A DNA stretch of 64,000 bases from contig NC_044590.1 of assembly GCF_901933205.1 (NCBI RefSeq), forward strand, positions 5,781,501 to 5,845,500, given 5' to 3'. Positions 7,850-64,000 of the stretch are shown piece by piece. Source of the DNA: Camarhynchus parvulus (taxonomy: Eukaryota; Chordata; Aves; Passeriformes; Thraupidae). Numbering within the stretch: position 1 is the first letter of the stretch; every line of letters starts with the position of its first letter. The notes below the pieces were generated by a model. The model was not told where the DNA came from. It did no database searches and saw only the letters and a program-made list of their open reading frames with translations. The position numbers and the translations under genes are program-made.

Positions 7850-8480
7850 AGCCTGTGCTTCTCCATCCAACCTGCACAGAGGGAGGCTCGAGCTGCTCTG
7901 ATCCCCCTTTAGCAAGCGCTGCCCGCGGTGTTGGATGCATCCCAACCTGCGGCGAGGCAGAGAGCCCTCGGGGAGGAAGATGGGAGCAAGGCACAGGGCT
8001 TGCCTTGGGGAACAGCACATTTTTAACCCCCACAGGAAGGTTACAGCGTAAGGAAGGAACCGCTTTGTCCATCTTTGGCTCATCCTGCAGGCGGTGAGTG
8101 CCCGGAGCCTGCCAGAGCCATCCCCGGCAGCGCAGGGAGCATCGCGGTCACCTCCCCGGCTCGCAGCGAGGGAGCAGCCGGCAGAGCCGGGCTCAGATTG
8201 CAGCAGGCTCCTCCTCCGCAGCCTGCCCAGGAGGAGGAACGGGCGTGGGGCCGGAGTCAGCAGCTCCGGGCTGCCTCACCTGCCCGGGGCCAGCGGCGCG
8301 GGGAGCAGCATCTTCCCAGCCTGCCCATGGGGAGCATCGCCGGCCCGGCATGGAGAGCCTGAGCAGCAGCCTCAAGAAGAAAGCCACGGAGCAGCACTAC
8401 AGGGCCGAGGTGATGATTGCTGGAGAGCAGCTGAGGTAGGAGGTCCCGGGGTCCTCCTGCCCACGGGGATCTGGGCTGTG
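7850..8480 (+). promoter_or_regulatory. CpG-rich promoter/5' UTR region of the DEPTOR-like gene
   Basis: Dense CpGs from about 7850 to 8480 surround the first coding exon, as expected for a CpG-island promoter. No TATA box was recognised. The start codon at 8350 has G at -3 and G at +4 (good Kozak context). It is the first ATG in this frame: the frame stays open upstream to about 8098, but only through non-ATG codons. The transcription start cannot be placed exactly. Confidence 0.6.
8350..8435 (+). CDS. DEPTOR-like: DEPTOR-like exon 1 (start codon, N-terminus)
   Basis: It encodes 28 codons plus two bases, ending in RAEVMIAGEQLR, which matches the human RxAEVLVTGEQLR segment just before DEP1. 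The N-terminal tail (MESLSSSLKKK) is shorter than the Gly/Ser-rich tail of human DEPTOR. The donor is CTGAG|GTAGGA. Confidence 0.85.

Positions 8481-64000: not shown

Follow-up and report, generated by a model that had tools for sequence, protein, structure and literature searches.

Most mTOR biology has been worked out in placental mammals, where human DEPTOR (DEPDC6, PDB 7owg) is the described protein closest to the one analysed here; it consists of two DEP domains, a linker and a PDZ domain. SCF-betaTrCP is reported to recognise the SSGYFS sequence of DEPTOR (residues 286-291) in phosphorylated form, with priming by mTOR at S293/S299 (PMC5237168) or, in another account, at S299/T295 (PMC8933699), and betaTrCP is described as able to use atypical degrons (PMC7206145). 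Residues 304-308 of DEPTOR are placed in the groove of the mTOR FAT domain and the PDZ contacts at residues 336-342 and 354-362 (PMC8439649, PMC8439657). A 13A mutant is defined by 13 S/T sites in the linker, and mTORC1 phosphorylation is reported to suffice for weakening the binding of DEPTOR (PMC8439657). Three D-boxes are assigned to DEPTOR, the third of which binds CDH1 (PMC9927933). More distantly, P-Rex1 and P-Rex2 (PDB 8tua and 9zq7) share with the protein described below the succession of tandem DEP domains and a PDZ domain (E 1e-39 to 1e-41), but they are Rac exchange factors of 1600 aa and lie very far away in the tree. No description of a DEPTOR paralogue was found in the titles and abstract beginnings of the open-licence papers listed by the searches made here.

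The window analysed here, a stretch of 64,000 nucleotides from the bird Camarhynchus parvulus (C20:5781501-5845500 of a 1.05-Gb assembly), contains a second, intact gene of the DEPTOR family, called here DEPTOR2. The gene spans 17 kb on the forward strand (window 8350-25198) and comprises nine exons which, once joined, give 1197 nt with zero internal stops and a protein of 398 aa, with GT/AG at 8/8 introns. With a human DEPTOR sequence as tblastn bait, 8/9 exons were matched in order on the forward strand, the best of them with E 8e-27. Exon 1 (8350-8435, start codon at 8350) gave by similarity alone a weak match of 22 bits (E 1.5); its position was set by eye, guided by the start codon and the splice donor. 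The tblastn matches and splice sites together delimit exon 2 (15085-15263), which encodes DEP1, exon 3 (18750-18873), with the end of DEP1 and the inter-DEP linker, exon 4 (20098-20276), with DEP2, exon 7 (22112-22182), with the N-terminal extension of the PDZ domain, and exon 9 (25073-25198), with the end of the PDZ domain and the stop codon. To these two lines of evidence is added an RxxL scan for exon 5 (21135-21320), which carries the end of DEP2, the start of the long linker and the third RxxL D-box, and the alignment for exon 8 (23830-23934), which carries the PDZ domain with its mTOR contact segments. Exon 6 (21679-21819), placed by splice sites and alignment, encodes the long linker; it reads SNTYFS at the site of the DEPTOR sequence SSGYFS and closes with CNPKS, the mTOR-docking segment. 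A reading frame of 11 codons (8327-8362), which begins at an ATG further upstream, overlaps the start of DEPTOR2 at 8350 in another frame and might dampen its translation.

Pfam recognised two DEP domains and a PDZ_6 domain (28.1 bits for a cut-off of 27) in the window protein, which thus displays the two N-terminal DEP domains and the C-terminal PDZ domain of the DEPTOR family. The structure 7owg aligns with it over residues 24-408, and its identity to human DEPTOR reaches 69% over 381 residues. The divergence of DEP2 and the linker and the conservation of the PDZ domain, both pointed out beforehand, are apparent from the residue counts: 42/75 for DEP2 and 42/76 for the linker (228-303) versus 66/84 for the PDZ domain, DEP1 also giving 66/84. 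For the Morus bassanus DEPTOR2 orthologue, an AlphaFold2 model built from a 25-row alignment has a mean pLDDT of 52.9 and falls below 50 from residue 222 onward.

On the same strand, the first matched exon of COL20A1 lies 6.8 kb downstream of DEPTOR2, and COL20A1 occupies the window from there to its end (31958-64000), the matched exons reaching C20:5854532. The preliminary description had proposed a complete nine-exon gene of the DEPTOR family upstream of COL20A1 on the same strand, and the intact frame and the position of the two genes confirm it. The collagen contains VWA, fibronectin-III and TSPN-like segments; of these, Pfam identified the VWA and fn3 exons and missed the single TSPN-like exon. 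When the joined collagen exons were used as query, collagen XIV ranked below collagen alpha-1(XX) sequences from birds and turtles, which were the top database matches. Within the same gene, 91 bases at 41924-42014 match part of the exon lying at about 42645-42735 (end of the VWA domain) with 92% identity. This copy keeps an AG acceptor, and its reading diverges ahead of the exon end, so that it resembles a partial, dead exon copy. Upstream, exons of ARFGAP1 are found at C20:5766782-5778477 on the same strand, 3-15 kb before the window; inside the window, a query with the N-terminal 290 residues of P0023 did not find ARFGAP1 (best E 0.34). P0023 is a database model of Crocodylus porosus in which ARFGAP1 and DEPTOR2 are joined, either by an annotation merge or by a readthrough transcript, and thereby indicates the same gene neighbourhood in crocodile.

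Contig C2 also gave strong DEP-domain matches. Exons 2-9 of DEPTOR proper are located at C2:138563962-138613415 on the forward strand, with 40/40 to 52/59 residues per exon identical to penguin DEPTOR and three exons identical throughout; the C2 stretch examined yielded no exon 1. Their lengths are 179/124/179/186/135/71/105/129, compared to 179/124/179/186/141/71/105/126 in DEPTOR2, and thus differ only at exon 6 (135 on C2, 141 in the window) and exon 9 (129 and 126). The intron phases of the two genes are equal at all exon junctions examined, the script used to define the C2 exons having required AG/GT and the phases of the window gene. The first matched exon of COL14A1 starts at C2:138638829 (forward strand), head-to-tail and 25 kb downstream of DEPTOR, so that the DEPTOR gene sought beside COL14A1 in the preliminary description is present. 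COL14A1 is interrupted there by a run of 5000 N (138692029-138697028). Matches to the KCNQ family, the second marker named in the preliminary description, number 17 on six contigs in all and occur on both C20 and C2, at C20:5.94-5.95 Mb and C2:143.32 Mb. One genome therefore holds a DEPTOR-collagen block in two copies, DEPTOR-COL14A1 on C2 and DEPTOR2-COL20A1 on C20. In both, the DEPTOR-family gene lies head-to-tail upstream of a FACIT collagen, with equal exon phases in this genome; DEPTOR2, however, adjoins COL20A1 and not COL14A1.

Protein trees were computed with 48 rows and then, with cartilaginous-fish DEPTOR added, with 46 rows. In both trees, calculated without outgroup, the proteins of the window gene (DEPTOR2 group) and those of DEPTOR (DEPTOR group) were separated at 100/100. 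In the 48-row tree, the nearest rows to the window protein are the songbirds Oenanthe (99/92) and Corvus. Sharks and rays are present in both groups. If the root is put between the two groups, as we chose to do, sharks and rays branch first in each, strongly in the DEPTOR group (other rows of that group 98/93) and moderately in the DEPTOR2 group (85/70). A single clade of the shark proteins of both groups was rejected (p=1.1e-6), as was the placement of the window protein inside the DEPTOR group (AU p=0.0008). With P-Rex as outgroup, aligned on the DEP domains, the groups held weakly (DEPTOR2 42/87, DEPTOR 83/57) and the base was unresolved; this root is too distant, and the timing therefore rests on the cartilaginous fish found in both groups. 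Since sharks and rays stand on both sides and their two proteins do not form one clade, the trees indicate that the split predates the living jawed vertebrates. DEPTOR2 is thus likely an ohnologue derived from a duplicated DEPTOR-collagen block before the living jawed vertebrates diversified, and the duplicated block suggests an origin in one of the two early genome duplications. The idea that the gene is an ancient paralogue and not the bird orthologue of DEPTOR, put forward beforehand, is strengthened by the 100/100 split and the rejected DEPTOR membership. The two outcomes then named as speaking against it both came out the other way, a second DEPTOR lying beside COL14A1 and the window protein falling outside the DEPTOR group.

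The distribution of the two genes was examined among the best 120 of 675 and the best 120 of 663 proteins, that is 143 distinct proteins, each assigned to a group by its best score against five DEPTOR2 and five DEPTOR references. Neither set of 120 included a lamprey, hagfish or amphioxus protein. Among the matches listed, DEPTOR2 was found in birds, turtles, crocodile, lizards, snakes, platypus and Tasmanian devil, in salamanders, caecilians and the frog Ascaphus, and in lungfish, bichir, sturgeon, paddlefish, gar, Megalops atlanticus, sharks and rays. At least 11 species have both genes (Elgaria, Pogona, platypus, gar, Ambystoma, Pleurodeles, Microcaecilia, Ascaphus, Rhinatrema, Geotrypetes and Pristiophorus). 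The earlier statement that this bird keeps a DEPTOR ohnologue holds as far as the separate paralogue is concerned, but the gene is no speciality of birds, being found across jawed vertebrates. Among those of these best matches that carry a species name there was no DEPTOR2 from a placental mammal, though placental DEPTOR was present, and DEPTOR2 is apparently missing from placental mammals. Teleost DEPTOR was likewise present in the same set, with no teleost DEPTOR2 besides that of Megalops atlanticus (P0244). This sole teleost protein among the matches listed groups with gar DEPTOR2, suggesting that DEPTOR2 outlived the origin of teleosts. Two proteins of the DEPTOR2 group, P0050 (397 aa) and P0051 (389 aa), come from source contigs of just 1766 and 2591 bases and, since DEPTOR2 spans 17 kb here, are most likely transcripts.

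The segments described as docking DEPTOR on mTOR are recognisable in the window protein, in which CNPKS and DAVGWGF are identical to human DEPTOR and AVDPGGPAA has one change. Over all sequences, segment 304-308 is identical to human at 337/343 residues in the DEPTOR2 group and 350/355 in the DEPTOR group, and the PDZ contact 336-342 at 463/480 and 497/497 residues. The contact 354-362 has changed more in DEPTOR2 than in DEPTOR (528/624 versus 612/639 residues identical). On this alignment, the mTOR-docking residues are kept in DEPTOR2. Human DEPTOR contains exactly three RxxL motifs (41, 54 and 224), the third of which we infer to be the D3 of PMC9927933; it is present in 72/74 DEPTOR2 sequences. 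As to the linker, 7/13 of the S/T sites altered in the 13A mutant are S/T in most DEPTOR2 sequences.

By contrast, the betaTrCP phosphodegron distinguishes the two groups. The comparison covered 145 rows (the 143 proteins, the window protein and human DEPTOR), 71 of DEPTOR and 74 of DEPTOR2, which do not count as independent, many being from birds and reptiles and some being isoforms of one gene. The motif SxGY[FY]S was found in 71/71 DEPTOR and 0/74 DEPTOR2 rows. Likewise, all 71 DEPTOR rows have G288 and an S/T at priming site 299 and at 265, as compared to 4/69, 2/67 and 0/69 DEPTOR2 rows, respectively, and most of the S/T cluster 297-299 is missing from DEPTOR2. The serines of the degron are partly retained as S/T in DEPTOR2 (286 in 52/69, 287 in 23/69, 291 in 37/68 and 293 in 38/68 rows), and SP or TP occurs within the patch in 47/67 rows. 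When the linker was scanned for a looser set of betaTrCP variants, consisting of the PMC7206145 list and ESG, which we added, 65/71 DEPTOR rows matched; among the 64 DEPTOR2 rows with a readable linker two matched, elsewhere in the linker, and one of the 10 rows without a readable linker matched outside it (3/74 in all). Six of the 71 DEPTOR rows (P0072, P0104, P0117, P0261, P0262 and P0263, fish among them) read SNGYYS or SIGYYS and thus have no middle serine, which is reported as required in human. In ten taxon-matched pairs, the within-group identity of the patch 284-303 was 0.916 for DEPTOR and 0.433 for DEPTOR2, and that of the other five parts of the protein was 0.71-0.90 in both groups. 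DEPTOR thus holds this patch tightly, and DEPTOR2 lets it drift. The preliminary description had stressed DEP2 and the linker, which have indeed diverged; the more telling difference is the absence of the phosphodegron.

Taken together, these data lead us to favour, with fair but by no means full confidence, the reading in which DEPTOR2, likely an ohnologue older than the living jawed vertebrates, is predicted to be an mTOR brake devoid of the phosphodegron through which mTOR triggers the destruction of DEPTOR. The PDZ domain would anchor DEPTOR2 on the FAT domain of mTOR and the tandem DEP domains would damp the kinase, as in DEPTOR. Once growth factors activate mTOR, DEPTOR would be phosphorylated and removed by SCF-betaTrCP; DEPTOR2, lacking the degron tag, would not be handed to betaTrCP and would stay, which makes it a likely brake that mTOR cannot remove. 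DEPTOR2 would then set a floor of mTOR inhibition, a constant brake beside the removable one, and its removal would be left to APC/C-CDH1. Against such an mTOR-proof brake, mTOR could loosen DEPTOR2 by phosphorylating the retained linker sites, and betaTrCP might engage it through an atypical degron (PMC7206145). The retention of the docking parts, of these linker sites and of the third RxxL would also suit a DEPTOR2 that acts like DEPTOR and is kept by expression split between tissues (subfunctionalisation), the degron mattering little because mTOR sheds DEPTOR2 through the remaining linker sites or because another ligase removes it. We consider this unlikely, though deserving attention: the degron patch alone drifts in DEPTOR2 yet is held in DEPTOR, and a neutral difference need not produce a complete split between the groups.

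Still less probable, in our opinion, is that DEPTOR2 works largely off mTOR and uses its PDZ groove or its lipid-binding DEP domains to act on other partners, as P-Rex proteins do. DEP2 and the linker are the parts most diverged from human DEPTOR, and among PDB structures the P-Rex DEP-PDZ proteins come next in relatedness, but the FAT-groove segment CNPKS is kept in the window protein and almost throughout its group right beside the freely drifting patch. Finally, several automatic annotations say plain DEPTOR, as would be expected if the window gene were the ordinary bird orthologue. This is ruled out by the separate DEPTOR that the bird's genome carries next to COL14A1 and by the rejected membership in the DEPTOR group, and a duplicate restricted to birds or reptiles by the shark, lungfish and salamander proteins of the DEPTOR2 group, leaving both with next to no probability. 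Returning to the brake that mTOR cannot remove, we propose only tentatively, at slightly less than even confidence, that jawed vertebrates may have begun with two DEPTORs, one destructible by mTOR and one mTOR-proof. Many lineages would keep both; in placental mammals the mTOR-proof copy would be gone, leaving them entirely reliant on the destructible brake with its feed-forward loop.

Gene models named "DEPTOR-like" or DEPTOR were already known. P0003, P0011 and P0024 are DEPTOR2 in other vertebrates (full-length identity 92-96% for birds, 88% for Chelonia), and the names of such orthologues are automatic, leaving origin, distribution and missing degron unstated. What the alignments add is the split of SxGY[FY]S between the two genes and the drift of the patch in the paralogue only. 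These automatic labels mix two genes, and the transfer of mTOR results between chicken and mouse may fail unless both are counted. A second ancient DEPTOR alters the picture of mTOR for birds, reptiles, many amphibians, sharks and non-placental mammals. Because its docking parts are kept and its degron is absent, DEPTOR2 would represent a natural experiment on the purpose of the mTOR-betaTrCP-DEPTOR loop.
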